This document shows positions 2 through 19,590 of a DNA stretch of 25,828 nucleotides, one piece after another. Position numbers and translations under genes: made by a program. The DNA is taken from positions 1-25,828 of the forward strand of contig JARKQP010000116.1 of assembly GCA_029974875.1 (NCBI GenBank), in the 5' to 3' direction. The first letter of the stretch is position 1. Every line of letters starts with the position of its first letter. The DNA is from Mobilitalea sp. GTDB taxonomy: Bacteria; Bacillota_A; Clostridia; Lachnospirales; Lachnospiraceae. The notes beneath the pieces were generated by a model, which saw nothing but the letters and a program-made list of their open reading frames with translations, did no database searches and was not told where the DNA came from.

Positions 2-1003
2 GGATTGGAATATGTTAAGAAGCATGATGGCTTCTCAACCTTATATATTAATGCCAGAATTTTTGATAAAAAGTCTGATTTTCATAAGACTTTGGGCGAA
101 AAAATGGCTATCAGGCAATATGATGGAAGCATGATTGGAGAAACCTATGGGCCGGAGCATTTTACCGTGAACTGTCCATCGGATTCATTGTGGAGGGATT
201 ATTTGATTGATACTGCAGAGTTTGCAGTTAAGGCATATGGTGCGGATGGCATTTACTTAGACCAGCTTGCATCTGCAGAACCATTTCCTTGCTATAATTC
301 AGAGCATAGCCATGATAATATTGGGGATTTTAATAATGGTTATGTTTATGTATTGAAGGAACTATTCCGTAGATTAAAGGAATATAACCCGGATGCTTAT
401 CTTATGACTGAAAATTGCGGAGATATTTACGGAAGCTATGTTTGGGGAAATCTTACCTGGAATGGCGAACATTATGATGAATTCTTTAATATATTCAAGT
501 ACACCTTTCCTGAGTTTGTCCAAGTAAATATGGTAAACCCCAGAGGCTGGGTCCAGGATATGGAAGAAAAGAGGAACTGGTTCTATAAAGATATGCAAAG
601 GGCAATATTACTCGGAAGTGTCTTATGGATGGGAATTACCACGCATTTAAAGGAAGAGCTGGAATTTGTAGAATTTAGTAAAAATGCGTTAAAATTCAGG
701 GAGAATATCCAACCATATATCAAAGGCGCTACATTCTTAGATAATAAATATATTTCGGAGATTACTGACGGATGTGATGCTACGTCATGGAGGCTTGCCG
801 ACGGCCGGGTTATGGTATTATGCGGTAATAAGGAAAAAGTTGATAACGCGGTAATTAAATTAAATCTGGATGAAACATCATTAGAGCTTCAGGTGTTTAA
901 TACAAATTGGGAACAAACAGCAGAGAGAAATGAAAGTGGTAATGTGATGTATCATATCGGTAATGAACGTTTATGGTGTTTTATTATAGGTTTTTCTAAA
1001 TAG
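2..1003 (+). CDS. DUF6259-like (beta/alpha)8 glycoside hydrolase, C-terminal part (5' end outside window)
   Basis: The frame is open to the first base, so the N-terminus is missing. The TTG at base 5 is an in-frame Leu codon, not a credible start. About 333 residues remain. The stretch GADGIYLDQ followed by a Cys/His-rich segment (CYNSEHSHD), and later MTENCGD, is typical of DUF6259-type barrel proteins that resemble clan GH-D hydrolases. The Asp of YLDQ and the Glu of TENCG are candidate active-site carboxylates. The last 80 residues look like a C-terminal beta domain. The protein probably acts in the cytoplasm or at the cell surface on an oligosaccharide; the substrate cannot be told. It points the same way as the GH13 gene downstream and the sugar importer further on. 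The family call rests on remembered motif patterns and is fairly but not fully secure. Confidence 0.7.
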   Translation, partial: GLEYVKKHDGFSTLYINARIFDKKSDFHKTLGEKMAIRQYDGSMIGETYGPEHFTVNCPSDSLWRDYLIDTAEFAVKAYGADGIYLDQLASAEPFPCYNSEHSHDNIGDFNNGYVYVLKELFRRLKEYNPDAYLMTENCGDIYGSYVWGNLTWNGEHYDEFFNIFKYTFPEFVQVNMVNPRGWVQDMEEKRNWFYKDMQRAILLGSVLWMGITTHLKEELEFVEFSKNALKFRENIQPYIKGATFLDNKYISEITDGCDATSWRLADGRVMVLCGNKEKVDNAVIKLNLDETSLELQVFNTNWEQTAERNESGNVMYHIGNERLWCFIIGFSK

Positions 1004-1095
1004 CATAAAGAATCGTTATAAAATGAAGGCTTGGCGGCGATTGTTATTAACAGAATAACTTCGTCGCTATACTTCGATTTGGGGTATTTATTTAA

Positions 1096-1278
1096 ATATT
1101 GCCAGGTATACATATGACTGTCTTTGAGGCGGGCGTTTTAGCAAAAAAGGCAAAGGTAAAAAAATTACTATTAACGCATTTGTTTGCTGCAGAGTCTGGT
1201 GAGGACTATATTAAGGAAGCGAAATCGAGTTTAGATAAGGTTGAGGTATCACAAATACTAAAAAACTACAATATATAG
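1096..1278 (+). pseudogene. Relic of a metallo-beta-lactamase-fold hydrolase gene (C-terminal end only)
   Basis: About 60 codons are open from just after a TAA at 1093 to TAG at 1276. The peptide contains GIHMTVFEAGVLAKKAKV, then KKLLLTHL, and ends in an Ile-rich tail. This matches the last section of RNase Z/ElaC-like metallo-beta-lactamase-fold proteins, where G-H-L-[ST]-x-x-E-A-G precedes V-K-K-L-L-L-T-H. The N-terminal HxHxDH metal motif and the rest of the fold are absent upstream. ATG 1114 could start a 54-residue peptide but has no SD site. It is best read as the 3' end of a deleted gene between the DUF6259 gene and the GH13 gene. Confidence 0.62.
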
Positions 1279-1314
1279 CATTATCTAAATGAACATGTTA
1301 TGAGGAGAATGAAA

Positions 1315-3116: not shown

Positions 3117-4067
3117 TTATTCCTCAATTTGTGAACCTCTTTCAGAATATAGATACCGTATGCAATCTTTTGATTTTATACTTTTTGTGTATTCACTCGG
3201 ATACATTCCGGTATATTTTTTAAATGAGTTTGAAAAGTAGTTAATGTTGCAAAATCTTAGCTGATCTGCGATTTGTGTGATATTCAAATTCGATGTCCGA
3301 ATTAATTCTTTCGCCTTTTCAATCCGTAAGCTGGTTAAATATTGAATGATGGTGAGGCCGGTTTGTTTTTTGAAGGCAACATGCAGGAGAGTTTTAGAGC
3401 AATTTAAAGCCTCACAGATATCCGGTATTCTTATATTGGTAAAAAGATTGTTTAAGAGATATACCTTTGCAGATAATACCAATTCATTGCTTGAATTAGT
3501 ATGACTTTGTTCAACGCTTTTTTTGTCGTCAGATATAGTTGGATAGGTCATTGCATTAATATTGATTAGCTCTAACAAAAAGATTTCTAAATAATTGATT
3601 AGCATTTGCTCCAGGAAGAATGGGTATTTTTCATTCTTTACTAAGTAAAGGCGTTCTTTGGTATCCACAATGGATGTAAATATGATGGAGCCATATTTTA
3701 ATACCTGGGAAAGAATGTTCTGGCAATATTCCGGTAAAACAATTATTTTATCAGCAAGAGAGCCCAGAAGGGAGCTGTCACATTTAAAGGAAACAACGCA
3801 CATAGAAGGTATATTACCTGAAATTGTTTTATGCCGGTGATATTCATTTGGCTTATGAAAGTAAATACAGTTTTTTTCAAGAGTAAAGTTTTTTTCTTCC
3901 GTATCAATTTCTATTTTTCCGCGATCTATGTACACTAATTCCCAGAAGTCATGGCTTTCCCCCTTAGAATCGAATTTCTGGTTCAAATCGCTATAAAATA
4001 AACTAATGACATTATCAATTTCAAGGATCTTATGAAGTTCTTGCTTGTAAAACAATTTTGTGTCCAT
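3117..4067 (-). CDS. AraC-family transcriptional regulator
   Basis: A 316-residue regulator. The N-terminal half has a cupin-like sensing domain (SHDFWELVYIDRG near residues 38-50, and HKPNEYHRH near 71-79). The last 100 residues form the two-helix-turn-helix AraC domain, with IPDICEALNCSKTLLHVAFK and later ITQIADQLRFCNINYFSNSF, ending in the usual Y-P-S-E-Y. AraC proteins of this layout usually activate nearby sugar-use genes when a ligand binds the cupin. It is divergent from the PIG-L/URO-D/ABC operon and convergent with the GH13 gene, so either could be its target. AGGGGG lies 11 bases before the ATG. Its own promoter overlaps a repeated operator-like motif, which suggests autoregulation. 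Confidence 0.93.
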   Translation of the reverse strand: MDTKLFYKQELHKILEIDNVISLFYSDLNQKFDSKGESHDFWELVYIDRGKIEIDTEEKNFTLEKNCIYFHKPNEYHRHKTISGNIPSMCVVSFKCDSSLLGSLADKIIVLPEYCQNILSQVLKYGSIIFTSIVDTKERLYLVKNEKYPFFLEQMLINYLEIFLLELININAMTYPTISDDKKSVEQSHTNSSNELVLSAKVYLLNNLFTNIRIPDICEALNCSKTLLHVAFKKQTGLTIIQYLTSLRIEKAKELIRTSNLNITQIADQLRFCNINYFSNSFKKYTGMYPSEYTKSIKSKDCIRYLYSERGSQIEE

Positions 4068-4398: not shown

Positions 4399-5100
4399 AT
4401 GAGAATATTAGCATTTTGCGCCCACCCAGACGATGTAGAAATTAATTGTGCCGGAACACTTGCAAAAAGTATCCAAAGAGGAGATGAAGCTTATATTGTA
4501 AATGCCTGTCTGGGAGATAAAGGGCATTATTATATCGAACCTAAGGAAATAGGAGAGATGAGATTAAGGGAAAGTCAAATGGCTAGTAAGGTAATAGGGG
4601 CTAAGGTTTCTTCGCTGAATTTTAGTGATGCTGAATTAGAAGTTAATCATGCCAACTTAGAGCTATTTGTAAAAAAAATCAGGGAAATAAACCCTGATGT
4701 TATTATCACACACGTGCCGGATGATTACCATTTGGATCATGTAGCGGTTAGCAAATTAGTGGTTGATGCCAGTTTTTTGGTATCGGTTCCGCATTGCTAT
4801 CCAGACCAAAAAGCGATGGAGCATACACCACAGGTTTATTTTATGGAGCCTTACACAGGTATCTCCTTTGTTCCCCAGGAGTTTGTAGACATTACGGATA
4901 CCTTTGATTTAAAGCTTGAAATGCTGTCATGCCACAAAAGCCAAATAGAGTGGTTAAAGGAACATGATGGCATGGACATCTTGGATTTTGTTAAAGTTAG
5001 CGCGGCTTATCGGGGATTTCAATGCGGAGTAAAATATGCGGAAGGATTTCAGAGATTAACCACTGCACTTAGGGCTATACCGGGACGGTTCTTACCCTAG
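4399..5100 (+). CDS. PIG-L / LmbE family deacetylase
   Basis: A 233-residue cytoplasmic protein. It opens with the family hallmark AHPDD (residues 8-12), giving zinc ligand His9 and catalytic Asp11/Asp12, followed by E14. The second metal motif HLDH (111-114) is present. Members remove N-acetyl groups from GlcNAc-bearing small molecules (GlcNAc-PI, mycothiol and bacillithiol precursors, diacetylchitobiose). The start at 4399 is chosen because AAGGAG at 4385-4390 stands 8 bases before it; the GTG at 4351 has no SD. It is the first gene of a same-strand run leading to an ABC sugar importer and a ROK kinase. This suggests deacetylation of an imported N-acetylated sugar rather than thiol biosynthesis. 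The substrate is not known. Confidence 0.9.
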   Translation: MRILAFCAHPDDVEINCAGTLAKSIQRGDEAYIVNACLGDKGHYYIEPKEIGEMRLRESQMASKVIGAKVSSLNFSDAELEVNHANLELFVKKIREINPDVIITHVPDDYHLDHVAVSKLVVDASFLVSVPHCYPDQKAMEHTPQVYFMEPYTGISFVPQEFVDITDTFDLKLEMLSCHKSQIEWLKEHDGMDILDFVKVSAAYRGFQCGVKYAEGFQRLTTALRAIPGRFLP

Positions 5101-5161
5101 TGTAACTGTCCCGCCCATAATTAGACTACCAGCGCTGTTAGCCTAAAGATGGATGGGACAG
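5081..5161. promoter_or_regulatory. Overlapping alternative hairpins between PIG-L and the first URO-D gene
   Basis: AACTGTCCCG (5104-5113) can pair back with CGGGACGGTT (5081-5090), 9 of 10 matched, at the end of the PIG-L gene. The overlapping CTGTCCCGCCCAT (5106-5118) can pair forward with ATGGATGGGACAG (5149-5161), 11 of 13. The two stems exclude each other. There is no U-run, so control of translation or RNA decay is more likely than classical attenuation. Confidence 0.4.
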
Positions 5162-5205
5162 TACCCTGGTTTTCACCATACAAAGCATTTACGAGGAGGA
5201 AGAAA

Positions 5206-6192
5206 ATGAAAGGATTAGAAAGAATTAATAATGCTATCTCAGGAATGAAGGTTGATAAAACTCCTGTTTGGCCATTTGTCATGGCATTTTCAGCTAAGTA
5301 TGCAAAGGTTACCTATAGGGAATTCGCTACGGTTTATAAATCGTTAGCGAAAGCCCAGATTATTACAGCGGATGCCTTTGGATTGGATGCAGTTACTGTA
5401 GATTCAGATGCATACCGTGAGGCAAGTGCCTGTGGTGCAATATTAGATTTTCCGGAGGATGGTCTTCCGGTTATAGTTAAGCATGCGATTACAGATAAGA
5501 CGAAATTCGCTTTTAAGCTGCCGGATATCAGTAATTCCGATAGGCTGACCGATAAGGTGGAAGGAATAAGATACCTTAAAAATCATTATAAAGATGAGAA
5601 AGCAGTTGTTGGATGGATTGAGTCACCGTTACAAAGTGCAGCAATGCTGTATGATATTAACGAATTCATGGTGGATCTTTTTGAAGAGCCTGAATTTGTC
5701 GAAGAGCTTCTATCGTTTGCAGCTGAAATGGGTATTGCCTTTGCGTTAGAGCAAGCCAAGGCAGGAGCGGATATTATTGGCATTGGAGATGCTACCGCAT
5801 CGATGATTTCCCCTAACCTATATGAAACAATTGTATACCCATACACGAAAAAAGTCGTTGATGGAATCCGTAAGAAATCAGATGTTAAATTAAAATACCA
5901 TATCTGTGGGGCTGCGAAGCATATTTTACCTTACGCGAAGGAACTTCAATTCGACTTAGTTAATATCGACTATAAGATTGATGCAAGGGAAGCCTTTGAT
6001 TTAGTAGGCGATAGCATTTGCATTAAAGGCAATATCGATCCTGTAGGAATTTTAAAGGATGGTACTCCGGAGCTGATCAGACAAGAAGTACTTAAGCTGA
6101 AGTCCCTAAATAAAGCGAAATTTATACTAAGCGCAGGATGTGAGGTAGCACGGGACACTCCTATAGAAAATATGAAAGCATTTGCGGAATAA
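5206..6192 (+). CDS. Uroporphyrinogen decarboxylase-family protein, MtaA/corrinoid methyltransferase-like
   Basis: A 328-residue URO-D-fold protein starting at ATG 5206, set by GAGGAGGA at 5193-5200; the upstream in-frame ATG at 5149 lies in a hairpin. It carries H-x-C-G (His232, Cys234) and a C-terminal S-A-G-C-E segment (Cys312) followed by TPIEN. His/Cys/Cys is the zinc-ligand pattern of MtaA/MtbA-type methyltransferases, which bind a thiol and exchange methyl groups with a corrinoid protein. True haem-pathway HemE lacks it. No corrinoid protein gene is visible here, so a partner would be elsewhere or the protein does other chemistry. It lies between the deacetylase and the importer and is probably cotranscribed with both. 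Confidence 0.85.
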   Translation: MKGLERINNAISGMKVDKTPVWPFVMAFSAKYAKVTYREFATVYKSLAKAQIITADAFGLDAVTVDSDAYREASACGAILDFPEDGLPVIVKHAITDKTKFAFKLPDISNSDRLTDKVEGIRYLKNHYKDEKAVVGWIESPLQSAAMLYDINEFMVDLFEEPEFVEELLSFAAEMGIAFALEQAKAGADIIGIGDATASMISPNLYETIVYPYTKKVVDGIRKKSDVKLKYHICGAAKHILPYAKELQFDLVNIDYKIDAREAFDLVGDSICIKGNIDPVGILKDGTPELIRQEVLKLKSLNKAKFILSAGCEVARDTPIENMKAFAE

Positions 6193-6218
6193 ATAATTTA
6201 TAAAGAAGGGAGGGTAAT

Positions 6219-7211
6219 ATGTTGGATACGATAAATGTAAATGATAAGAATACTGGGATAAGATATGTTGGACAGCAGTTATCCAAGTTTAGTAAAGAGT
6301 ATGCGGCTGTATTTGCAATTTTAATTATGGGCTTGATTTTTTCATTTATGTCCCCATACTTTTTTACGGCACAGAATATTAAAAATATTTTTTTACAATG
6401 TTCTGCATTAGCAATCGTTGCTATGGGCCAGGCCTTCATTATCCTAAATGGACAATTTGACATGTCACTGGGACAATGTGTTTGCTTTACCAGCGCTGTA
6501 GCAGCATATTTGATGAAAATAGAGGGAATTAACCCTTGGTTATCTATTTTAGTGGCTTTACTTTTAGGATGTTTAGTAGGATTAACAAATGGTGTACTTT
6601 TTGCATACTTCAAGATACCGGCATTCATTGCCACTTTAGGTCTCCAAATGATCTGCAGAAGTGCGGCTAAAATTATAACCAACGCCACACCAATCGCGAG
6701 ACTGCCGGATGAGATCGCATTTTTAGGCAGAGGCTATATTGGGATATTTCCGATCTGTGTAATCATTATGATTGCCCTATACATAGCAGGACAATTTGTA
6801 TCCCGTAAAACAAGATTTGGGAGAAATATTTATGCAACAGGTGGAGGGGCAGAAGCTGCATATTTTGCCGGTATTAATATAAAAAAGACCTATTGCTTAA
6901 CCTTTGCCATGGGTGGATTATTAGCTGCATTCGGCGGGATAATCCTAATGTCACGCCTAGATTCGGTATCCTTAACGAATGGCAATTTGTATGAATTTGA
7001 TTCTGTTATTGCATGTGTAATCGGTGGATTAAGTTTAACAGGAGGAAAGGGTAAAGTCATCGGTGCCCTATTTGGCGTAATCTTTTTAATAATTTTCTTC
7101 AACGGTATGACGATGATGAATATTGACCCATTTTACCAGGATGCCATAAAAGGTGCTGTATTAGTTATTGCAGTCCTATTGGATGTTTTTAGAAATAAAA
7201 GAAGTAAATAA
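6219..7211 (+). CDS. Ribose-type (RbsC-like) ABC sugar transporter permease
   Basis: A 330-residue inner-membrane permease of the BPD_transp_2 class. It has a short charged N-terminus, then about 8-10 hydrophobic segments. Family-typical stretches are GQAFIILNGQFDMSLG, GLTNGVLFAYFKIPAFIATL, and near the C-terminus GGLSLTGGKGKVIGALFGV. GGGAGG-like SD (AAGAAGGGAGGG) precedes ATG 6219. The gene starts 26 bases after the first URO-D gene and ends 31 bases before the ATPase gene, so it is in one operon. Permeases of this class import monosaccharides such as ribose, xylose, galactose or autoinducer-2, and sometimes nucleosides. The ligand cannot be told from sequence. Confidence 0.94.
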   Translation: MLDTINVNDKNTGIRYVGQQLSKFSKEYAAVFAILIMGLIFSFMSPYFFTAQNIKNIFLQCSALAIVAMGQAFIILNGQFDMSLGQCVCFTSAVAAYLMKIEGINPWLSILVALLLGCLVGLTNGVLFAYFKIPAFIATLGLQMICRSAAKIITNATPIARLPDEIAFLGRGYIGIFPICVIIMIALYIAGQFVSRKTRFGRNIYATGGGAEAAYFAGINIKKTYCLTFAMGGLLAAFGGIILMSRLDSVSLTNGNLYEFDSVIACVIGGLSLTGGKGKVIGALFGVIFLIIFFNGMTMMNIDPFYQDAIKGAVLVIAVLLDVFRNKRSK

Positions 7212-7242
7212 GAAAATATAGTTGAAGGAAAGGGGGGATGTC

Positions 7243-8721
7243 GTGAATAATACAATACTTCAATTCAAAGGAATTGGAAAAAGTTTTCCTGGTGTTAAGG
7301 CTTTGGATAATGTGTCATTTGAAATAAAAGAAGGGCATGTCCATGCGTTGATGGGAGAGAATGGAGCGGGCAAATCAACATTAATTAAACTATTGGCAGG
7401 TATTTATACAAATTATGAAGGCGAAATATACCTGGATGGTGAGCTTTTGAAATTACGGACCCCCAATGATGCGCAAAAGCATGGAATAAGTGTTGTACAT
7501 CAGGAAATAAAATTGGCAGAAACATTAAGCATAACAGAAAATATTTTTCTGGGTAACCTTATTTATAAAAATGGATTAGTGGATTGGAAAGAAATGAAAG
7601 GTAAAGCGCAGGATATGGTTGAAGGCCTCGGGATGGATCTGGATGTGGATATGCCGGTCAACCAGCTGACCGTTGCTAAAAAGCAAATTGTAGAAATCTG
7701 CAAAGCGATAAACCATGATTGTAAGGTTCTAATTATGGATGAACCGTCTGCTACCTTAACGGAAAAAGAACTAAAAATATTGTTTGGCATCATGGATAAA
7801 TTAGTCAGGGACGGAATTACAATTATTTATATTTCCCACAGAATGGAGGAGATTTTTAATCTGGCAAATACGATTACAGTACTAAGGGACGGAAAATACA
7901 TCGATACTTTGCCGGTGGAAGAATGTGACCGTAAAACACTAATCAAATTAATGGTAGGAAGATCGATCGATAATGAATATCCCAAAGAAGAAATTGATAT
8001 TGGTGATGTAATACTAAAAGCAGAGCATTTAACAAGAAAAAGAGTATTTAATGATATCTCTTTTGAACTTAGGAAGGGAGAAATTCTGGGCTTCTCCGGA
8101 CTTGTAGGCGCCGGAAGGACGGAGGTAATGCGTGCTTTAGTTGGTATAGACCATCTGGATAGCGGAGCTATTTATCTAAAGGGTAAGAAGCTTCTCATCA
8201 AATCCTTTCAGAATGCGATAGCAAATGGTTTCGGACTAATACCCGAAGACAGAAGACAGCAGGGGCTGGTGCAAATAGCGTCCGTGAAAGAAAATATTTG
8301 TATGGTCGGCAGAAATAAAGTGATCAGACATGGGCTGATAGAAGCTTCAATGGAAAAGGATATAAGCAAGCACTATGTTGATAAATTAGATATTGCCACG
8401 CCCAATATAGAGATAGAAGTACAATATTTGAGCGGTGGTAACCAACAAAAAGTGGTAATTGCAAAATGGTTACTGGAGGATAGCGAAATTATCATTATGG
8501 ATGAACCTACGAGAGGAATTGATGTAGGTGCAAAGTCAGAGATATACCGGCTGATGTGTGCACTCGTTAAGCAGGGCAAATCAATTATCATGATATCTTC
8601 AGAGCTGCCGGAGATTCTGGGGATGTGTGATAGAATTATGGTTATGCATGAAGGGAAGCTAGTTGGGGAGATGGCAGCAAAGGAAGCAACACAAGAAAAA
8701 ATTATGGAACTATGCATTTAG
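7243..8721 (+). CDS. Ribose-type (RbsA-like) ABC sugar transporter ATP-binding protein, two ATPase domains
   Basis: A 492-residue protein with two fused nucleotide-binding domains. Domain 1 has Walker A GENGAGKST (38-46) and Walker B LIMDEPSAT (163-171), with a degenerate signature (QLTVAKKQ). Domain 2 has a degenerate Walker A (GLVGAGRTE, 286-294), a full LSGGNQQ signature near 396-402 and IMDEPTRGID. This asymmetry is normal for RbsA/MglA/XylG proteins. The start is GTG 7243: a G-rich SD (AGGGGGG, 7231-7237) stands 5 bases before it. The TTG at 7222 would place this SD inside the gene, and ATG 7238 runs straight into TGA. It powers the permease encoded just upstream. Confidence 0.94.
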   Translation: MNNTILQFKGIGKSFPGVKALDNVSFEIKEGHVHALMGENGAGKSTLIKLLAGIYTNYEGEIYLDGELLKLRTPNDAQKHGISVVHQEIKLAETLSITENIFLGNLIYKNGLVDWKEMKGKAQDMVEGLGMDLDVDMPVNQLTVAKKQIVEICKAINHDCKVLIMDEPSATLTEKELKILFGIMDKLVRDGITIIYISHRMEEIFNLANTITVLRDGKYIDTLPVEECDRKTLIKLMVGRSIDNEYPKEEIDIGDVILKAEHLTRKRVFNDISFELRKGEILGFSGLVGAGRTEVMRALVGIDHLDSGAIYLKGKKLLIKSFQNAIANGFGLIPEDRRQQGLVQIASVKENICMVGRNKVIRHGLIEASMEKDISKHYVDKLDIATPNIEIEVQYLSGGNQQKVVIAKWLLEDSEIIIMDEPTRGIDVGAKSEIYRLMCALVKQGKSIIMISSELPEILGMCDRIMVMHEGKLVGEMAAKEATQEKIMELCI

Positions 8722-8751
8722 CAAAAAAATATATTAAAGAGGAGAAGGAAG

Positions 8752-9720
8752 ATGAAATTAAAAAAATTTGTAGCAGTGGTATTAGCAGGTGTTATAACTA
8801 CAACGGTATTCACAGGGTGTGGTGCAAAAACGGAAGAAGAGGTTACTGAAAAGGAAGGCAAAAAACTTAAAGTAGGTGTAGCCCTTTTGTATAAGGGGGA
8901 TGAATGGCTTGCAGCAATTTCGGATGAATATGAGAGGCAGGGTGCAGAGCTTGGTTACGAAATTAATGTTCAAGATGGTAATCAGGATAATGAAAAGCAA
9001 ACACAGCAAATTGAGAACTTTATCACGCAGCAATATGATGTTATTATAGCTTCCGCTGCTGATGCGCAGGGTATTATTCCGGCAATCCAAAAGGCCGAAG
9101 AAGCTGGTATTCCTGTTGTTTCTACAGATACACCGATTGAATATCCATATGTCTCAACCTGTGTTGCCTGGGATAACTATGAAACTGGCGTTAAATTGGG
9201 AGAATATGCTAAAAAGTATATTGAAGAGAACTATGCAGATAAAGAGAAGGTTAATCTGGTAATGATTAATGCTCCAAGCTATCCGCACTTAGTAAAGAGG
9301 GATGAAGGATTTTTAAGTATTATTAATACGATTGATAAGGTTGAAATCATTGCGACCCAGGATGCAAATGGAAGCCGTGAGGTATCCGCTAATATTATTA
9401 ATAATAATATTGCAAAAGGTATTGATATGGTTTATGGCGTAGTTGACAATCATGCCTGGGGTGCAGTAACCGCATTAGAAGAAGCAGGAGCAGAGGAATG
9501 CGCCGTATTATCCTGTGGTGGATATGGAGATGAGCCATTTACAGCTTTATCAGAGCACCATAAATATTATAAAGCTTTAATTGTTGTACCTCCGGTAGAT
9601 GTTGTAAAAGATTCATTGGCAGCAGCTGTAAAAGCGGTTAACGGAGAAGAATTAGAGGACATAACAAATACAAGCTTTGGTCTTGCGGACAGCTCTAATG
9701 TGAAGGATTATATGGATTAG
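8752..9720 (+). CDS. Ribose-type sugar-binding lipoprotein of the ABC importer
   Basis: A 322-residue substrate-binding protein. The lipoprotein signal peptide is clear: KLKKF, a hydrophobic core, then the lipobox FTGC with the modified Cys near residue 24. The mature part opens with KLKVGVALLYKGDEWLAAI and continues through QQYDVIIASAADAQGI and EEAGIPVVSTDTP, the pattern of Peripla_BP_4 (RbsB-like) proteins. A strong SD (AGAGGAGAAGGA) lies before ATG 8752. It is anchored outside the membrane and delivers ligand to the permease/ATPase pair encoded upstream. The ligand is unknown. This class usually binds one sugar ring, sometimes modified, unlike the oligosaccharide-type binding proteins at the right of this window. 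Confidence 0.93.
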   Translation: MKLKKFVAVVLAGVITTTVFTGCGAKTEEEVTEKEGKKLKVGVALLYKGDEWLAAISDEYERQGAELGYEINVQDGNQDNEKQTQQIENFITQQYDVIIASAADAQGIIPAIQKAEEAGIPVVSTDTPIEYPYVSTCVAWDNYETGVKLGEYAKKYIEENYADKEKVNLVMINAPSYPHLVKRDEGFLSIINTIDKVEIIATQDANGSREVSANIINNNIAKGIDMVYGVVDNHAWGAVTALEEAGAEECAVLSCGGYGDEPFTALSEHHKYYKALIVVPPVDVVKDSLAAAVKAVNGEELEDITNTSFGLADSSNVKDYMD

Positions 9721-9725
9721 TATTA

Positions 9726-9796
9726 TTTATATTTGGATTTCAAAATGTAAATATAAAACCAGTTAAGGTATCATAACACCTTATTAATATATACGG
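9726..9796. repeat. Two AT-rich dyads between binding protein and second URO-D gene
   Basis: TTTATATTT (9726-9734) pairs with AAATATAAA (9749-9757). A little further on, AAGGT...ACCTT forms a second small stem. The 135-base gap is larger than others in the operon. These weak stems could lower expression of the genes downstream, but no clear terminator or promoter is seen. Confidence 0.3.
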
Positions 9797-9855
9797 GACG
9801 TCCTTTTTGGAATGATAATAATGAGAGCTATTTTTATGGAAAATTGGAGGAAATA

Positions 9856-11031
9856 ATGACATCAAAAGAAAGGTTATTAACCGTTTTACAACATAAAATA
9901 CCGGATCGTGTACCGATTTCTACATATGATATGACCGGTTGGCATGTTGAACCAAAGAATTCGGTTCTGAAGGACGAAATGACCAGATATGTTGAGGACA
10001 ATATCTTTGGTACCTATATGTCAGGCTGGTGGAATAGGGAAGAGTCTTATATCCCTCTTATGAAATATATTAGGGAAAAAGCGGATTGCATTTATATGAC
10101 CAGTGTTAATTGCAATAATGCCTATGTGGCCAAGCATACACGCTATGAGCAAATGCAGGAAGGCGACAGCACTTTTACAAAGATAATTTTGACGACACCA
10201 AAAGGAGATTTAACCCAAACCTTCAGAATGGATAAGGGGATATATACTGCCTGGGAAATCGAGCACAGAATTAAGGACGAGAGTGATATAGAGAAGTATC
10301 TTTCTATCCCCTTTGAGCCTATGCCCGTGGATGTGTCCCATTTAAAGGAGCAGGAAGATTATATTGGAGACAATGGCATCCTGATGGTTGATATCTCTGA
10401 CCCAATCTGTGAAGTGGCAGGAATGTTTGAATTTGGAGATTTTACGGTGACCGCTTTTACCGAGGAGGAAACCATAACCAAGATGTTAGACAAGGCATAT
10501 GAAGAACAGGAATATTTTCTGAAGGATATGCTAAGACAGGGAGCAGGACCATTATTCCGTATGGCTGGGGCGGAATACTGTACACCACCCTATTTGCCAA
10601 ATGAATTTTTTAAGAAATTTGTTATGGCCTATGATAAAAAAATAATTCGATTAATTCATGATTATGGCAGGTATGCCCGTATTCATTCCCATGGAAAGGT
10701 TAAAACTGTCCTCCGGGATTTGCTGGATATGGAGATCGATGCTATCGATCCTGTTGAGGCTCCTGAATCTGGTGACATAACCCTGAAGGAAGCGAAAGAG
10801 ATATGCCGGGATAAAATTTGTCTGTTTGGCAATATACAGCTTAGGGATTTGGAGCTATTACCTGCTGATCAGATGAAAGAGGTTGTCCGTAAATGCGTCG
10901 AGGAAGGAAAGCCCGGAGGGAATTTTGTGGCTTTACCAACGGCAACGCCGCTTAATGTACCGCTTTCTCCCAGAACTGAAGAGAATTTTAAAATATTTAT
11001 AGATACGGTTCTTGAGATGGGAGTATATTAA
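9856..11031 (+). CDS. Uroporphyrinogen decarboxylase-family protein, divergent (His-only site)
   Basis: A 391-residue URO-D-fold protein opening with MTSKERLLTVLQHKIPDRVP, the usual family N-terminus. Where the first URO-D protein has H-x-C-G, this one has H-S-H-G (His277, His279), and its C-terminal segment (VALPTATP) has no Cys. It therefore lacks the His/Cys/Cys zinc site of MtaA-like enzymes. It belongs to a broader COG0407 group of unknown chemistry found beside sugar genes. GGAGG at 9846-9850 sets the start at ATG 9856, not TTG 9844. It is 136 bases after the binding-protein gene, on the same strand. HemE is unlikely: the N-terminal GRPPVW and porphyrin-site pattern is not seen. Confidence 0.82.
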   Translation: MTSKERLLTVLQHKIPDRVPISTYDMTGWHVEPKNSVLKDEMTRYVEDNIFGTYMSGWWNREESYIPLMKYIREKADCIYMTSVNCNNAYVAKHTRYEQMQEGDSTFTKIILTTPKGDLTQTFRMDKGIYTAWEIEHRIKDESDIEKYLSIPFEPMPVDVSHLKEQEDYIGDNGILMVDISDPICEVAGMFEFGDFTVTAFTEEETITKMLDKAYEEQEYFLKDMLRQGAGPLFRMAGAEYCTPPYLPNEFFKKFVMAYDKKIIRLIHDYGRYARIHSHGKVKTVLRDLLDMEIDAIDPVEAPESGDITLKEAKEICRDKICLFGNIQLRDLELLPADQMKEVVRKCVEEGKPGGNFVALPTATPLNVPLSPRTEENFKIFIDTVLEMGVY

Positions 11032-11042
11032 TCATTTATAAG

Positions 11043-11143
11043 AAGGGGCTGTCGCAAAATAAATTTTTCATATAAGATATTTGTGTTGGCCAACAGCCAG
11101 AAATTATATCTTGTTGAATTTTTACATTTTGCGGCGGCTCCTT
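11043..11143. mobile_element. MITE-like element with imperfect terminal inverted repeats
   Basis: AAGGGGCTGTCGCAAAAT (11043-11060) is matched inversely by ATTTTGCGGCGGCTCCTT (11126-11143), 15 of 18 with the differences as G-U pairs. The dyad extends weakly inward: AAGATAT occurs in both arms. Ends of the form GGGGCTGTCGCAAAA resemble those of DDE-transposase insertion sequences. No ORF lies inside and no target duplication is obvious. It could also be a folded leader of the ROK gene. Confidence 0.5.
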
Positions 11144-11224
11144 TTGTGCCGGCTGCAATATCTTGCTACATCCGGTTTTTGCTCCGGAGACCAAGAAGAG
11201 GAAGTTTCGTGAAAGGGGTAGATT

Positions 11225-12175
11225 ATGAATTATTATATTGGAATTGATTTAGGTGGGACAAATATTGCAGTAGGTGTAGTTGATGAAAGCTATCATATTA
11301 TATCAAAATATAATATGCAAACAAAGGCAGGCAGGCCTGCTAATGAAATTTGTGATGATATGGCTTATTGTGTAAGGCAGGCAATCCTTCAGATTGGTTG
11401 TACGATGGAGGAAATAGCAGGCGTAGGTATTGGCATACCAGGAACCATCAATGCAAAAACAGGGGAGATCAGCTTCACGAATAATCTGGGGTTTGACGGG
11501 CTGCCTATTAAAAAGATGATGCAGGATAGGTTAGGATGCAAGATCTATTTAGAGAATGATGCCAATGCGGCAGCTTACGGAGAAGCGTTGGCAGGTGCCG
11601 GCAGGGGTAAAAACCACATGCTAATGCTTACGCTGGGTACAGGCGTAGGTGGAGGCTATGTGACAGCTGGAAGAATATTTGCTGGCGGAAATAACATGGG
11701 CGGTGAGTTTGGCCATATGGGTATCGTAATGAATGGGCGCCCATGTACTTGTGGGAGAAGGGGATGCCTTGAAGCTTATGCCTCAGCTACCGGTCTCATA
11801 CAAAGCATGAGGGAGGCCATGGAATTACATCCGGAAAGCTTGGCGTGGCGGCAGGTGTCAGCTCTTGAGGAAGTGGAAGGAAAAACGATATTCCAGGCAA
11901 TGGATTTAAACGATGCAATTGCTAACCAGGTATTTGAACAGTATATTGAATATCTCTCCTACGGTATTCTTAACCTAATTAATATATTCATGCCAGAAAT
12001 CATTATACTGGGTGGCGGAATTAGTAATCAGGGAGAGCGTTTAATCAGTCCGCTCCGTAGAAAGGTTGGGCAAAATATATATGGAGAAATGACATGTCCG
12101 CAGATTGCCTGTGCAGAACTAAAAAATGATGCGGGCATTGTTGGAGCGGCATTGTTAGGAAATCAAGATTTATAG
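11225..12175 (+). CDS. ROK-family sugar kinase (glucokinase-like)
   Basis: A 316-residue kinase. The N-terminal phosphate loop DLGGTN (8-13) and the later LTLGTGVGGG segment bind ATP. NDANAAAYGE (111-120) holds the likely catalytic Asp112. The ROK zinc signature is complete: E-F-G-H-M (His164) and C-T-C-G-R-R-G-C-L-E (174-183). There is no N-terminal helix-turn-helix, so this is a kinase and not a NagC/XylR-type repressor. It should phosphorylate glucose, N-acetylmannosamine or a related hexose in the cytoplasm. It is the last gene of the left cluster and suits the role of activating the sugar brought in by the ribose-type importer. AAAGGGG precedes the ATG. Confidence 0.92.
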   Translation: MNYYIGIDLGGTNIAVGVVDESYHIISKYNMQTKAGRPANEICDDMAYCVRQAILQIGCTMEEIAGVGIGIPGTINAKTGEISFTNNLGFDGLPIKKMMQDRLGCKIYLENDANAAAYGEALAGAGRGKNHMLMLTLGTGVGGGYVTAGRIFAGGNNMGGEFGHMGIVMNGRPCTCGRRGCLEAYASATGLIQSMREAMELHPESLAWRQVSALEEVEGKTIFQAMDLNDAIANQVFEQYIEYLSYGILNLINIFMPEIIILGGGISNQGERLISPLRRKVGQNIYGEMTCPQIACAELKNDAGIVGAALLGNQDL

Positions 12176-12346
12176 TTCATAGCGAGGAAATAATAGCAGA
12201 AAAGTTTTAATGCAAAGCCAAAAACAAAATATATTTACAGGAGAGGAACTATAAAGCAGTGGACAGCCAGCAAAAGCATATGGGTGAAGAGCGGTACAAC
12301 GAGATATTAGTTCCGAAATAAATTATACATAATAGAATTGAAATGC

Positions 12347-12380
12347 AAAAAACTCAGGGAGATGTTACCCCGAGTTTTTT
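12347..12380. terminator. Bidirectional intrinsic terminator
   Basis: AAAAAACTCAGGG and CCCCGAGTTTTTT form a stem (one mismatch) with an A-run and T-run on either side, so both strands end in U-runs. It lies between the convergent ROK and GH30 genes. The 170 bases between the ROK stop and the stem hold only an unsupported short frame ending at 12321. Confidence 0.88.
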
Positions 12381-12459
12381 GTATTCCATAATATTTTGAG
12401 ATTCATGGCTCCTTGCCATCCCATGAAATGTTTCTTCCCAGGCGGCCTCTGTCTTAACC

Positions 12460-13929
12460 TTAAGACAGAACCACTGTACTAAGTGTTCTTGCAGGCAGAT
12501 CCACACGGATAACCTGGCCGTTCATACGGATCGCATATTTTACGTCATCATTATTTTTATTTAAAAGTACTGTTACTATAGAGCCGTCTGGATTTTTAGC
12601 AGCAGTCATTTCAATCTTATCGCTGCACCTGGAAAAACCAATACGCACCGCGCCCGGCAGAATGTATTTGGAAAAATGCCTTATAAAGTCAAAGGATAAA
12701 TTCTTGCGGTAGGTTCCATCATCATTGGCAACCATCGGTGCGGCAAAACCGGAGGGAACATGGCGCGGCCCACCGTCTTTATCAACAATCAGGTTCCAGT
12801 CAATCCAGCGGTTCATACCGGCATTTAAATTGCCAATCAGATCATGGGCATAAGCAACGGCGTCTTCAAACTCTACGGTTTCCGGAAGCTTACTGCCGCC
12901 GAACAGCCCCATAAATCCGGATTTTCCAGGGGGATGAAGAGCGCAGCATTCGCTGGACATCAGGATTTTACTGGGGAAGGCATTTCTGGTCAGCTCTACC
13001 GCTTCAAAATGATCCCCGGAATACCAATGGAAAGCGATACCTTCTACCATTTTATCAGTCACTTCATCAATGATGTCCCTGGAATACTCCAATACGCGTT
13101 CCTTGTTATGATCCCAAATATAAATACCGACTTTACCGGTTAATCCGGATTCCTGGAAGGCAGGATACAGGTAGTCGCGAAGAAATGTCTTCTGCTGGGC
13201 AGAGGTCCATACACAGCTGTCCCAATTTGTGGCAGCTATGGATTCATTCTGGATGGACATCATAGTAACAGGGATGCCTTCCTCCAGATATGCCTGTACA
13301 AATTTTACAAGATATTTTGCCCAGGAGCCATAATATTCCGGCTTTAAGGCTCCGCCATTGCAGCGGGACGGCTTGGTATAATCCACCGGCTCCATCTGAA
13401 AGCCGAACATTGCACCATAAACAGACAGGTCATTCTGGGGCTTTTCCGGCGGTGTTTTCCAGGCAGCAGGAGGTGACCAGGGACTGAGCAGGACACTGAG
13501 AGGCTCAGTGGAAAGCTCCATTGCTTCCTTCAGCATGGGAATAATATACTGATGGTCACGCTTTAGGGAAAATGTGTTTAGCTCCGGGTCCGCGATGGGA
13601 TCCTCTACAGCAGCATATTCCTCAAGGGAATAATCACAGCTATCCATATGGACACGAAGAAACTTGACGTGATTCCCCTGGGCTCCGAAATAATCCTCTA
13701 AGGCTTTTTTTCGGGTCTCTGCGTCCATTTTAGAAAGCAGATAAGCGGAGGATTCGGTCATAGCACCTCCAAAGCCTTCGATTGTCTGGAATGTAATATC
13801 CGGATAGAGATTTAAGACATCCGATTCTAAATGTGTCGGTTCGTCAGCTTCCCTTGTAACCGGAATGTCATACTGCTTAGGGTAAGCGATCCCGTTAGCA
13901 GAAAATGTGGTAATCTGTTTGCAACCCAT
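12460..13929 (-). CDS. GH30 beta-glycosidase (glucosylceramidase-like)
   Basis: A 489-residue enzyme without a signal peptide. Hallmarks: QTIEGFGGAMTESSA (48-62), LLSPWSPPAAWK (147-158), acid/base Glu229 in SIQNES, and nucleophile Glu327 in SSECC. The C-terminal 90 residues form the beta-sandwich with MVANDDGTYRKNLSF and VLLNKN. Family GH30 includes beta-glucosidases, glucosylceramidases, beta-1,6-glucanases and xylanases; this layout fits the bacterial beta-glucosidase/glucosylceramidase side best. AAAGGAG stands 8 bases before the ATG. It is divergent from an AraC gene, its likely activator, and convergent with the ROK gene. An upstream frame from 14009 overlaps its start in another frame and is not counted as a gene. 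Confidence 0.92.
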   Translation of the reverse strand: MGCKQITTFSANGIAYPKQYDIPVTREADEPTHLESDVLNLYPDITFQTIEGFGGAMTESSAYLLSKMDAETRKKALEDYFGAQGNHVKFLRVHMDSCDYSLEEYAAVEDPIADPELNTFSLKRDHQYIIPMLKEAMELSTEPLSVLLSPWSPPAAWKTPPEKPQNDLSVYGAMFGFQMEPVDYTKPSRCNGGALKPEYYGSWAKYLVKFVQAYLEEGIPVTMMSIQNESIAATNWDSCVWTSAQQKTFLRDYLYPAFQESGLTGKVGIYIWDHNKERVLEYSRDIIDEVTDKMVEGIAFHWYSGDHFEAVELTRNAFPSKILMSSECCALHPPGKSGFMGLFGGSKLPETVEFEDAVAYAHDLIGNLNAGMNRWIDWNLIVDKDGGPRHVPSGFAAPMVANDDGTYRKNLSFDFIRHFSKYILPGAVRIGFSRCSDKIEMTAAKNPDGSIVTVLLNKNNDDVKYAIRMNGQVIRVDLPARTLSTVVLS

Positions 13930-15521: not shown

Positions 15522-15576
15522 GATAATATATTATATAGTTGTTGACATATTAAATGATTTTGGATAATATATTATC
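15522..15576 (+). promoter_or_regulatory. hipBA promoter and paired palindromic operators
   Basis: TTGACA (15542-15547), a 17-base spacer and TAATAT (15565-15570) form a strong promoter. The -10 box is embedded in a perfect 14-base palindrome GATAATATATTATC (15563-15576). A second copy, 13 of 14, is at 15522-15535, 41 bases upstream or about four helical turns. Transcription should start at about 15577-15578, on the antitoxin ATG itself. Autorepression by HipB is the natural reading. Confidence 0.8.
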
Positions 15577-15577
15577 T

Positions 15578-15862
15578 ATGAATAACTTTGCATTTAATAA
15601 AAGAACTTCAAAAGAAATCAATGAGCTAATTGCAACCAGAATCCGCGGTATTCGAAAAAGAAAGAAACTGTCACAGGAAAGGTTAAGTGAAAAATCGGGA
15701 GTAAGCTTAGGTTCTGTGAAAAGATTTGAGGGTAGTGGTGAGATATCATTGAGTTCGCTGACTAAGATAGCAATTGCATTAGAGTGTGAGGATGAACTGG
15801 AACGATTGTTTCAGGAGATTCCTTTTAATTCTATTCAGGAGGTAATTGATGGACAGGACTAA
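15578..15862 (+). CDS. hipB: HipB-like Xre-family antitoxin/regulator
   Basis: A 94-residue protein from ATG 15578. It holds one helix-turn-helix of the Cro/CI (HTH_3) type: IRGIRKRKKLSQERLSEKSG, then VSLGSVKRFEGSGEISLSSL, then a short C-terminal tail. It is the usual length for HipB. ATG 15554 gives 102 residues but lies upstream of the -10 box, so it cannot be on the mRNA from that promoter. No SD precedes 15578, which suggests a leaderless message. The gene overlaps hipA by 14 bases. HipB proteins neutralise HipA and repress the shared promoter. The paired palindromes upstream are the obvious binding sites. Confidence 0.87.
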   Translation: MNNFAFNKRTSKEINELIATRIRGIRKRKKLSQERLSEKSGVSLGSVKRFEGSGEISLSSLTKIAIALECEDELERLFQEIPFNSIQEVIDGQD

Positions 15863-17000
15863 AACATTATCGGTTAAGTATAATGGTAGATTAGTTGGAA
15901 CAATGGCATTATACAAGAATAGCCTGGCAGCCTTTGAGTACGCGAAAGAGTGGCTGAAGGACGGCTTTTCTATTAGTCCGTTTTCATTACCGTTAGAGCA
16001 GAAGGTATTTATACCAAAGCTAGATCCATTGGAAGGATTATATGGTGTATTCGCAGATAGTCTCCCAGATGGCTGGGGAAGATTGTTGGTTGACCGCTTA
16101 CTGGTGAAAAATAAAATTAATCCGCGTGAGATAAGCAATATGGATCGGCTTGCTATTGTCGGGTCATCAGGGATGGGGGCGCTTTGTTTTGAGCCGGAGC
16201 AGTACTTTGATATTCAGGAGAATCATTTGGATCTTGATACGATCGCAGAGGAATGTGCCAATATGTTAAAAACCGAATATTCGGATAACTTAGATGAACT
16301 TTTTCGCCTGGGTGGTTCTTCTGGTGGTGCCAGACCAAAGATACTTACGGAGATTGATGGGGAGGAATGGATGATCAAATTTCCTTCAGCAAATGATGCC
16401 AAAGATATTGGTGAACAAGAATATCGGTATTCAAGGTGTGCAAAGAAGTGTGGAATTAAGATGGAAGAGACTAGGTTGTTTCCATCTGCCACCTGTTCAG
16501 GTTATTTCGGTACGAAGAGATTTGACAGGGAAACGAATGCGGAGGGGAATGTGAAGCGAATTCATATGATTTCTGCAGGCGGAATATTAGAGACTTCTCA
16601 CCGTATTCCTAATCTGGATTATAATATTCTGATGAAACTGACCCTGGAATTAACAAAAGATTTTTTGGAAATCGAAAAATTATTCCGATTAATGTGCTTT
16701 AACGTATTTGCACATAACCGTGACGATCATTCAAAGAACTTCACATATCTCTATGATGATGAAGAAAATAGATGGTTATTATCGCCCGCATATGATTTGA
16801 CCTATAGCTATTCCCTTAGTGGAGAGCATGCTACATGTGTGAATGGCAATGGAAGTAATCCGGGGCTTGAAGAAATCGTGGAAGTCGGCAGAAATATAGG
16901 AATAAAAGAGCGAAAAGCAAAAGCAATAGCCGAGGAAATCAGAGGAATCGTGGAAGAGGATAAGCTGGTCATACCCCTAAAATATGTGGAAAAAATTTGA
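15849..17000 (+). CDS. hipA: HipA-like serine/threonine kinase toxin
   Basis: A 383-residue HipA-fold kinase (E. coli HipA has 440). The N-terminal domain has GVFADSLPDGWGRLL (66-80). The kinase core has GGSSGGARPK (155-164), where Ser157 lines up with the autophosphorylated Ser150 of E. coli. It also has ATP-binding Lys177 in WMIKFPS, the catalytic loop AHNRDDHSKN with Asp292, and the metal-binding AYDLTYS with Asp316. All key residues are present, so the kinase is probably active. Known HipA proteins phosphorylate glutamyl-tRNA synthetase or related targets and cause growth arrest. AGGAGG sits before ATG 15849, inside hipB. A relic of a P-loop gene overlaps its end. Confidence 0.9.
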   Translation: MDRTKTLSVKYNGRLVGTMALYKNSLAAFEYAKEWLKDGFSISPFSLPLEQKVFIPKLDPLEGLYGVFADSLPDGWGRLLVDRLLVKNKINPREISNMDRLAIVGSSGMGALCFEPEQYFDIQENHLDLDTIAEECANMLKTEYSDNLDELFRLGGSSGGARPKILTEIDGEEWMIKFPSANDAKDIGEQEYRYSRCAKKCGIKMEETRLFPSATCSGYFGTKRFDRETNAEGNVKRIHMISAGGILETSHRIPNLDYNILMKLTLELTKDFLEIEKLFRLMCFNVFAHNRDDHSKNFTYLYDDEENRWLLSPAYDLTYSYSLSGEHATCVNGNGSNPGLEEIVEVGRNIGIKERKAKAIAEEIRGIVEEDKLVIPLKYVEKI

Positions 17001-17357: not shown

Positions 17358-18281
17358 ATGAAAAAGAAAAACAAGAAGGCCAGGATACTGCGGAGCATAC
17401 CAATTTACCTTATGATGTTACCAGGCTTAATTTATCTCTTTTGCAATAATTATATGCCCATGTTCGGCATTGTCATTGCCTTTAAAAAGATTAACTGGCA
17501 GAAGGGAATCTGGGGCAGTGAATGGGCAGGACTGAAGAATTTTGAATTTCTGTTTAAATCAAAGGATACCTTTACAATGATCCGCAATACGGTGCTTTAT
17601 AATATGGTGTGGATTATCCTGGGTACCATATTATCCATTGCAGTTGCAATTCTACTAAATGAAATCATAAATAAGTTCTCCAAAAAAATATATCAAAGTA
17701 TCATCCTGTTACCTTATCTGATGTCAATGGTAGTTGTCAGCTATCTGGTATATGCAGTATTGAGTAATGAGACGGGATTTTTAAATAACAGTATCCTACC
17801 AAGGCTGGGGCTGCAGCCCGTCAACTGGTATCAGGAGAAGGCATATTGGCCTGTAATCCTTACCATTGTAAACCTGTGGAAGGGCATAGGCTTCTCCATG
17901 GTAATCTACTATTCCAGCATTGTGGGAATCAGCACGGAATACTATGAGGCGGCAAGACTGGACGGAGCCAGTAAATGGCAGCAGGTGAAGCGGATAACGA
18001 TGCCCCTGCTAGTACCCACCATTATCACCTTGTTCATCTTAAGCGTCGGAAGAATTTTTGCTTCAGATTTTGGTTTGTTCTATCAGGTGACTAAGAATTC
18101 CGGCGCCTTATATCCTACGACACAGACCATTGATACCTATGTCTATAACGCATTAATGAAGCTGGGGAATGTGTCAATGTCATCAGCAGCCAGCGTTTAC
18201 CAGGCAATCATAGGGTTTATTCTGGTCATGATAACGAATGCCATTGTAAGAAAATACAGCAAAGAAAATGCATTCTTCTAG
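17358..18281 (+). CDS. LplB-type ABC oligosaccharide transporter permease
   Basis: A 307-residue permease with six hydrophobic segments. YLMMLPGLIYLFCNNYMPMFG near the N-terminus is the mark of the LplB group, and the EAA loop reads YYEAARLDGASKWQQVKRITMPLL. It is full length for the family, and GGAAGGTAGGGA provides an SD. LplB and YtcP permeases form a heterodimer that takes oligosaccharides from a lipoprotein; the ATPase (MsmK-like) is usually encoded elsewhere. Its partner genes directly downstream are both broken, so it is probably an orphan, unless it pairs with the second set of genes at 19,659-23,369, which includes its own LplB-type permease. Confidence 0.92.
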   Translation: MKKKNKKARILRSIPIYLMMLPGLIYLFCNNYMPMFGIVIAFKKINWQKGIWGSEWAGLKNFEFLFKSKDTFTMIRNTVLYNMVWIILGTILSIAVAILLNEIINKFSKKIYQSIILLPYLMSMVVVSYLVYAVLSNETGFLNNSILPRLGLQPVNWYQEKAYWPVILTIVNLWKGIGFSMVIYYSSIVGISTEYYEAARLDGASKWQQVKRITMPLLVPTIITLFILSVGRIFASDFGLFYQVTKNSGALYPTTQTIDTYVYNALMKLGNVSMSSAASVYQAIIGFILVMITNAIVRKYSKENAFF

Positions 18282-18299
18282 AGGGAGGGGAAATAAACA

Positions 18300-18893
18300 A
18301 TGAATTTAAAATATTCGAGTGACCGCAGGATCAGAGTGGTGGCTCATGTGGTAATGATATTCCTGACGGTCTGCGCCTTGCTTCCATTTATCCTGCTTAT
18401 GATGGCTTCCTTTACAGAAGAAAATACGGCAATTAAATACGGCTTTACCTTCTTTCCCAAGCAGCTCAGCATTTCAGCATACCAATACATAGCCGGGGAG
18501 TGGCAGCAGATCGGCCACGCCTATCTGATTTCCATGCTGGTTACCGTAGTAGGTACATTGTTAGGAATGCTAATCTGTACCCTTTTATCCTACGGACTGA
18601 CGAGGGATTTTATTGGGAAAAAGTTTATCAATATCTATGTGGTTTTCACAATGCTGTTTAATGGAGGAATCGTATCCACCTATTACATCTATTCCAATGT
18701 ATTCCATATCAAAAATACGATTTGGGCCTTGATTATACCGGGATTGCTTTTAAATGTATTCAATATCATGTATGAAAAAGCTAAGAAAAATGGGTTCTAT
18801 TTTAATTGTTCTCAGTATGGCAGTGACTATGTTCACGGCCTGCGGGAAACCAACAAAGGGAACCTCGGGAACAGACGATGCACCAACAGATAA
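18300..18893 (+). pseudogene. YtcP-type ABC permease, 3' truncated by a deletion
   Basis: The first ~157 residues are a normal YtcP/AraQ-type permease (ALLPFILLMMASFTEE, VVFTMLFNGGIVSTYY, WALIIPGLLLNVFNIM). The homologue at 22,446-23,369 goes on with MMRTYFQGNIPDAVIEAGRIDGAS and another 120 residues. Here the frame instead runs into the start of the next gene and reads 40 unrelated residues to a stop. The EAA loop that contacts the ATPase and the last membrane segments are missing, so the product cannot be a working permease. A good SD (GGGAGGGG) precedes ATG 18300. Confidence 0.88.
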
Positions 18894-19173
18894 TTCCGGT
18901 ACCGGTACTAAAGTGACCGGAGAAGCAGATGAAACGCCATATGAAATTGTAATGCCCTTTGTTACAGTAGGCACAACTCCAGCGGATTTAGGCAAGGTGG
19001 AGGCTGCCATCAGCGAATACACAATGCAGGAAATTAATTGTACTGTAAAGTTCAAGCCGGTAAGCATTATGGAATTAACAACCCAGTACAATCTTTGGAT
19101 CTCCTCCAGTGAAAAGGTGGATTTGCTGTTTTTATTTTTATCTGATTTAGGTTCCTATGTAAATATGGTATAA
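18772..19173 (+). pseudogene. Oligosaccharide-binding lipoprotein, N-terminal fragment
   Basis: From ATG 18772 comes a lipoprotein signal peptide (KKLRKMGSILIVLSMAVTM, lipobox FTAC), a Thr/Gly-rich linker, and the start of an LplA-type binding domain (PYEIVMPFVTVG, then TTQYNLWISSSEKVDLLF). It ends at 133 residues; relatives have about 500. Compared with the intact homologue (ALSSGEQIDVFSPFNLSTS), similarity fades right before the stop. The start has no SD because the upstream deletion joined it directly to the permease gene. It is therefore broken at both ends: at the front by loss of its leader and at the back by truncation. Confidence 0.88.
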
Positions 19174-19565: not shown

Positions 19566-19590
19566 GGTTGAAAAATGAGGATATTCAACC
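19566..19590. promoter_or_regulatory. Inverted repeat before the binding-protein gene
   Basis: GGTTGAA and TTCAACC flank 11 bases. The dyad lies about 70 bases before the ATG of the intact binding protein, where an operator or leader hairpin would be expected. No convincing -10/-35 pair was found in 19,347-19,658, and no gene was seen in that stretch. Confidence 0.35.

Follow-up and report, generated by a model that had tools for sequence, protein, structure and literature searches.

A PIG-L and two-URO-D sugar-import operon of Mobilitalea sp. as a candidate module for a methylated N-acetylhexosamine

A stretch of 25,828 nucleotides from Mobilitalea sp. (contig JARKQP010000116.1, called the window here at its full length) carries an operon at 4399–12175 that joins a PIG-L deacetylase, two proteins of the uroporphyrinogen decarboxylase (URO-D) superfamily, a sugar importer and a ROK kinase. 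Which substrate would need all of these together is the question raised by this locus. We propose, with about even confidence, that this operon serves the catabolism of a hexosamine that is both N-acetylated and methylated, and that its URO-D pair moves the methyl group via a corrinoid protein supplied in trans. The seven genes are intact, and each product scores above its Pfam gathering score in a profile scan of the window proteins:

4399..5100, + strand: PIG-L/LmbE-type de-N-acetylase (Pfam PIG-L, 93.1 bits, cut-off 28.2)
5206..6192, + strand: UROD1, MtaA-like URO-D protein (Pfam URO-D, 235.1 bits), with His-Cys-Cys at H232, C234 and C312
6219..7211, + strand: permease of a CUT2 (ribose-type) importer (Pfam BPD_transp_2, 125.6 bits)
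about 7243..8721, + strand: double ATPase of the CUT2 importer (Pfam ABC_tran, two stretches; start codon set by eye)
8752..9720, + strand: lipoprotein, sugar-binding protein (Pfam Peripla_BP_4, 136.6 bits; PDB relatives ribose-type)
9856..11031, + strand: UROD2, divergent URO-D protein (Pfam URO-D, 45.7 bits), with HxH instead of HxC and the third Cys absent
11225..12175, + strand: ROK-family sugar kinase (Pfam ROK, 235.1 bits)

The gaps flanking UROD2 are 135 and 193 bases, in agreement with the original prediction, which described seven same-strand genes with gaps of about 135 and 190 around the second URO-D gene. The gap between PIG-L and UROD1 is 105 bases, given a UROD1 start at ATG 5206.

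All seven genes recur in the nearest genome (G001, contig C75 of 42,717 bases) with the order kept and 95–99% protein identity, and because both order and sequence are kept the gene set is more than chance. The PIG-L, UROD1 and UROD2 core is also found in two distant genomes, G885 (locus L151) and G1138 (L152), with identities to the window proteins of 52 and 49% for PIG-L, 49 and 46% for UROD1, and 42 and 39% for UROD2, respectively. There it stands with a CUT1 importer, a PfkB kinase and NagB; the two NagB proteins score 298.4 and 309.3 bits against the cut-off of 236.9 for TIGR00502, the curated glucosamine-6-phosphate deaminase. It is chiefly from this core, which stays fixed while importer and kinase are exchanged and has NagB beside it, that we take the substrate to be an N-acetylhexosamine bearing a group that the URO-D enzymes remove. 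The original prediction had proposed that a modified sugar is imported and unblocked, and had suggested a search for the gene set in other neighborhoods. That search found the full set in G001 and the core in G885 and G1138, and the importer, kinase and NagB of the latter two narrow the idea to a methylated N-acetylhexosamine; the rarity of the gene set sets a limit to it.

A close PIG-L was seen in G001 only among 34 genomes sampled from the genus, and beyond G001 the next UROD1 match among 150 genomes of the family has 35% identity. UROD2 has matches in 42 of 295 genomes of the order, those listed outside G001 reaching at most 36%. At E <= 1e-40, UROD1-like proteins occur in 10 of 391 genomes of the class and PIG-L homologues in 11 of 348 genomes of the phylum. 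The UROD1 of G885 is identical to a protein from the metagenome-assembled genome Desulfitibacter sp. BRH_c19, and is missing from three other genomes of its class, two of them of the same genus. The operon is rare and therefore accessory, not a trait of the genus. Contigs shared between homologue lists were counted, with contigs matched by exact size and with 200 shifted controls; each list held the best 120 homologues of one protein from among 5.8 billion database sequences. The lists of PIG-L and UROD1 have 13 contigs in common (control mean 1.2, maximum 4), and those of UROD1 and UROD2 have 6 (control mean 0.9, maximum 3).

Judged from their sequences, UROD1 and UROD2 are different kinds of protein, with an MtaA-type zinc site in UROD1 only. 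The closest profile match of UROD1 is MtaA (4ay7, E 7.8e-38), and its zinc ligands His-Cys-Cys are invariant in 35/35 aligned homologues. At the three zinc-ligand columns UROD2 reads HHA in 24/24 rows and His-Cys-Cys in 0/24, and an invariant D-P-x-E lies near its His-x-His. The only solved relatives of UROD2 within E 0.01 are MtaA (2.3e-8) and CdmB (2.8e-4). Its AlphaFold model (mean predicted local distance difference test score, pLDDT, 93) is predicted to be a URO-D barrel, a fold that does not decide the reaction. The label MtaA-like, used for URO-D proteins in the original prediction, thus holds for UROD1 and fits UROD2 far less well, because UROD2 is distant (Pfam URO-D 45.7 versus 235.1 bits) and lacks the MtaA-type zinc site. 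Both proteins fall below the curated cut-off of the MtaA/CmuA methyltransferases (TIGR01463, 235.4 bits; UROD1 165.7, UROD2 42.7). As uroporphyrinogen decarboxylase HemE (TIGR01464, 302.95 bits), UROD1 scores 110.8 bits and UROD2 has no listed match.

According to PMC10418091, His-Cys-Cys is an S/Se-type site, loss of the Cys marks the O-type, and Mlp2 of C. ljungdahlii methylates selenide. CdmB is described as a zinc-free URO-D enzyme able to serve as a substrate methyltransferase (PMC13222342). In six of six operons with a UROD1-like protein, a second URO-D protein and a sugar importer (window/G001, L023, L024, L028, L151 and L152), the first is of the His-Cys-Cys type and the second is not, a pattern that tells less for our proposal since the way in which these loci were located partly presupposes a His-Cys-Cys member. 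The His-Cys-Cys type is few per genome: 2/8 aligned URO-D proteins in G486, 2/5 in G562, 2/4 in G502, 2/8 in G671 (where a ninth match was left out of the alignment), and in G503 a single one (L063) beside 26 others aligned, with no His-Cys-Cys and one Phe-Cys-Cys, the third ligand column being uncertain in distant URO-D proteins.

In the pathway proposed here, the importer would take up an N-acetylated, methylated hexosamine and PIG-L would strip the N-acetyl group. UROD2, which suits the part of substrate-specific demethylase better than UROD1 does, would move the methyl group onto a corrinoid protein encoded elsewhere, which the RACo activase would keep reduced, and UROD1 is a candidate for thiol-linked (S/Se-type) methyl transfer. 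The ROK kinase (PfkB in the relatives) would phosphorylate the unblocked sugar, which a NagB-type deaminase, present in the operon of the two distant relatives and assumed to be elsewhere here, would lead into glycolysis. The kept core with exchanged importers and kinases, the NagB genes of two distant operons and the zinc-site types are observed; from them we infer the substrate, the order of steps, the methyl position, the acceptor, the use of a corrinoid and the role of each URO-D enzyme.

Residues H9, D11, D12 and H114 of PIG-L (HPDD...H) are invariant in 16/16 aligned homologues, which together with the PF02585 score places it among the PIG-L/LmbE de-N-acetylases, and its nearest solved relatives include diacetylchitobiose deacetylase. 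The bacillithiol deacetylase BshB1 was rejected for it (TIGR04001, 128.4 versus curated 182.5 bits). Binding protein, BPD_transp_2 permease and duplicated ATPase make the importer one of the CUT2 type, and all three miss the curated equivalog scores of the ribose importer RbsABC (RbsB 69.4/337, RbsA 534/745 and RbsC 216.8/398 bits). The kinase likewise stays below the curated scores of glucokinase (TIGR00744, 248.8 versus 260.35 bits) and N-acetylglucosamine (GlcNAc) kinase (PRK13310, 141.8 versus 380 bits). Elsewhere, PIG-L homologues of 42–50% identity (L153, L154, L158 and L159) lie beside proteins that by eye resemble DegT aminotransferases and Gfo/Idh dehydrogenases, not URO-D; these loci perhaps belong to other amino-sugar pathways.

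Can a corrinoid protein be supplied in trans? In 12/12 genomes tested that have UROD1-like proteins, G001 included, RACo and a corrinoid protein of 212–236 residues with an open frame were found, so that the corrinoid protein and activator for which the original prediction suggested a search are present in relatives, although outside the operon. In a 196-genome class sample, which lies within the 391 genomes above, RACo occurs in 8/8 UROD1 carriers versus 78/188 others (one-sided p 0.001, kinship uncorrected). It is found in 65/73 Clostridia genomes with a URO-D match (E <= 1e-12) versus 21/123 others, a comparison in which at most ten candidates per genome were scored, HemE counted among URO-D, kinship was uncorrected and other uses of RACo confound; URO-D without RACo was seen in eight genomes. 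At least four URO-D matches were found in 44 genomes, 40 of them with RACo, and the remaining four are 73–84% complete. G648 has 46 URO-D matches and G503 has 32, with one RACo match each. In several genomes RACo and the corrinoid protein share one locus with a PocR-type AraC regulator, these genes being identified partly by BLAST to Pfam-checked G503 proteins. The G001 contig that carries the operon also has, some 15 kb away from PIG-L, a corrinoid gene, a PocR regulator and a further URO-D gene of the His-Cys-Cys type.

The surroundings of other URO-D genes also bear on the sugar link. Four of the nine UROD1-like contexts besides that of G001 hold sugar genes (L056 CUT2 and ROK; L060 CUT2; L057 and L058 GH13 and GH127-like). 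Two more are weaker, L059 with CUT1 about 3 kb off and L062 adjoining a ROK-type regulator; L063 has no adjacent sugar genes, the stretch of L061 is too short to judge, and L064 is a corrinoid cluster whose UROD1-like protein has 31% identity. Corrinoid-type clusters (L026, L027 and L030) are also among the UROD1-like loci of the family sample. In G503, 12/20 URO-D stretches (16–19 kb, 20 of about 23 loci used) contain sugar-type importer genes, as do 3/20 of the 16-kb control stretches (Fisher p 0.008).

A wider arrangement, which we advance tentatively and at somewhat less than even confidence, is that anaerobes demethylate methylated (amino) sugars by a hub and spokes: a central corrinoid-protein/RACo/PocR locus would serve many scattered URO-D enzymes, which stand singly or in pairs of a His-Cys-Cys and a non-His-Cys-Cys member within sugar-import operons. 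If this is true, the window operon is the branch for methylated N-acetylhexosamine, and a large share of the expanded, so far unassigned URO-D proteins of anaerobes would gain a function. The substrates of corrinoid methyltransferases in the literature consulted are methylamines, methyl-sulfur and methyl-selenium compounds, aromatic ethers and haloalkanes. In a search that covered few subscription papers, no published account was found joining the URO-D family with carbohydrate and corrinoid, PIG-L with URO-D and an ABC transporter, or URO-D with N-acetylglucosamine and corrinoid. A route for methylated amino sugars, if true, would explain how anaerobes exploit sugars whose modification stops the ordinary enzymes, and URO-D proteins such as the many in G648 and G503 would have a function that can be tested.

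Further features lie in the gaps and flanks of the operon:

3117..4067, - strand: AraC-type regulator (Pfam HTH_18 and AraC_binding), divergent from the operon, in the same place in G001
5105..5162: dispersed repeat in the PIG-L/UROD1 gap, an imperfect palindrome (79% match to its own inverse over 58 bases)
11046..11145: long hairpin with arms of about 20 bases in the UROD2/ROK gap (RNA fold -47.7 kcal/mol)
12346..12381: terminator-like hairpin 3' of the operon, facing GH30 too (called on the - strand, 14 pairs; the + strand also folds)
12460..13929: GH30 gene, convergent with the operon

From its position, the AraC-type protein is likely the regulator of the operon. A stretch similar to the palindrome occurs in G001 just upstream of RACo (L069 8723–8760). 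The hairpin region of the UROD2/ROK gap has 98.5% identity over 206 bases in G001, and may be structural or resemble a miniature inverted-repeat transposable element. Upstream, a metallo-beta-lactamase-fold gene separates DUF6259 from GH13 in G001 (L021 12909–13730) and is missing from the window (1003–1300). Past GH13 and DUF6259 in G001 (L021 15803–18292), two SIS-domain sugar isomerase genes flank a BadF-type kinase gene, whose product matches GlcNAc kinase weakly (81.5 of 370 bits). Downstream in the window, a HipBA-like pair at 15554–17000 has its HTH protein overlapping the HipA-type kinase. A CUT1-type importer set at 17358–19173 looks decayed, with an intact permease followed by open reading frames of 197 residues and 139 residues (the latter lipoprotein-like), neither with a Pfam match; an intact importer set follows at 19575–23369. 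The GH2 protein of 23471–25300 is above the curated beta-glucuronidase cut-off (779.2 versus 544 bits).

Several observations weigh against the methylated N-acetylhexosamine proposal. Corrinoid protein and activase families were found neither among the window proteins scanned nor in the operon, and NagB is absent from the window. RACo is common (86/196 genomes of the class sample), shared ancestry is uncorrected in its co-occurrence statistics, it adjoins MtaB in G001 and lies near an MTTB protein in G786, and it is present in 10/10 genomes with a PIG-L homologue, only two of which have URO-D alongside. The PocR/corrinoid/RACo loci of G502, G503, G885 and G1138 also hold a pterin-binding methyltransferase, and such hubs would not require UROD1 as acceptor enzyme. 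No URO-D gene was seen in the stretches examined at 9 of the 11 PIG-L loci inspected besides that of G001, which come from 10 genomes (the stretches of L156 and L157 are short), and the homologue lists of UROD2 and PIG-L share 2 contigs versus 1.0 in controls, no excess. G503 has adjacent URO-D pairs without any His-Cys-Cys member (L085, L087 and L098). One weakness is that single UROD1-like genes are also found among sugar genes; an acceptor-only role fits them badly, and UROD1 may there be the enzyme that works on the substrate.

If UROD1 acts on the substrate, the zinc-site rule would allow a thio- or seleno-ether, which keeps alive, at low probability, a selenosugar reading. Here the methyl group would sit on sulfur or selenium of an N-acetylhexosamine (methylthio- or methylseleno-), one example being 1beta-methylseleno-N-acetyl-D-galactosamine, a selenosugar of urine; after import, the cell would remove its acetyl and methyl groups to obtain selenium, sulfur or carbon. 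The lone UROD1 genes adjoining sugar genes suit it. The S/Se-type His-Cys-Cys site and the methylation of selenide by Mlp2 (PMC10418091) also favor it, as does the presence of both N-acetyl and Se-methyl on the selenosugar (PMC5372522). However, selenium or sulfur genes were not recognized in the operon, L151 or L152, UROD2 is not His-Cys-Cys, and importer, kinase and NagB together point to a carbon source. NagB, moreover, acts on glucosamine phosphate and not on galactosamine phosphate. We regard this reading as quite improbable. Less remote, though still unlikely, is that the URO-D proteins of an amino-sugar pathway carry out another sugar step without corrinoid, such as a lyase, epimerase, decarboxylase or other TIM-barrel reaction. 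Against it stand the invariant His-Cys-Cys of UROD1, the co-occurrence of URO-D and UROD1 with RACo, and the corrinoid methyltransferases that are the profile relatives of UROD2. It seems very unlikely that the locus is simply an operon for ribose- or galactose-type import and phosphorylation, interspersed with genes unrelated to it: the palindrome of one gap, the long hairpin of another and a binding protein closest to ribose-type proteins would fit, but the ribose equivalog cut-offs are missed and the core recurs in distant genomes with other importers and kinases.

The methylated N-acetylhexosamine module can be set beside several known systems. With N-acetylglucosamine catabolism (deacetylase, kinase and NagB) it shares de-N-acetylation and phosphorylation, and in two relatives NagB as well. 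The usual deacetylase of that route is NagA, whereas the window operon has PIG-L, two URO-D proteins in addition, and no NagB in the window. Its PIG-L belongs to the fold family of BshB1 and diacetylchitobiose deacetylase and has their invariant HPDD...H, and differs from them in the surrounding genes. UROD1 shares fold family, His-Cys-Cys and its best match, 4ay7, with the soluble coenzyme M methyltransferases MtaA/MtbA and the Mlps of type 1 mlp clusters. In the type 1 cluster, Mlp2, Mlp3, a corrinoid protein and a reductive activase are encoded together (Kountz & Balskus, PMC10418091); UROD1 has the His-Cys-Cys sphere, but it stays under the mtaA_cmuA cut-off and lies in a sugar operon that lacks corrinoid protein, activase and methyl-sulfur or methyl-selenium genes. 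The corrinoid systems known for O-demethylation and dehalogenation (MtvB, OdmB, VdmB and CdmB) are described as having aromatics or haloalkanes for substrates and as clustered with a corrinoid protein and an activase of their own (PMC13222342), whereas UROD2 is surrounded by sugar genes and its corrinoid protein would come in trans. UROD2 shares with these enzymes the URO-D superfamily and the lack of His-Cys-Cys, matches CdmB at 2.8e-4, and is likened to them in its proposed role as the substrate methyltransferase.

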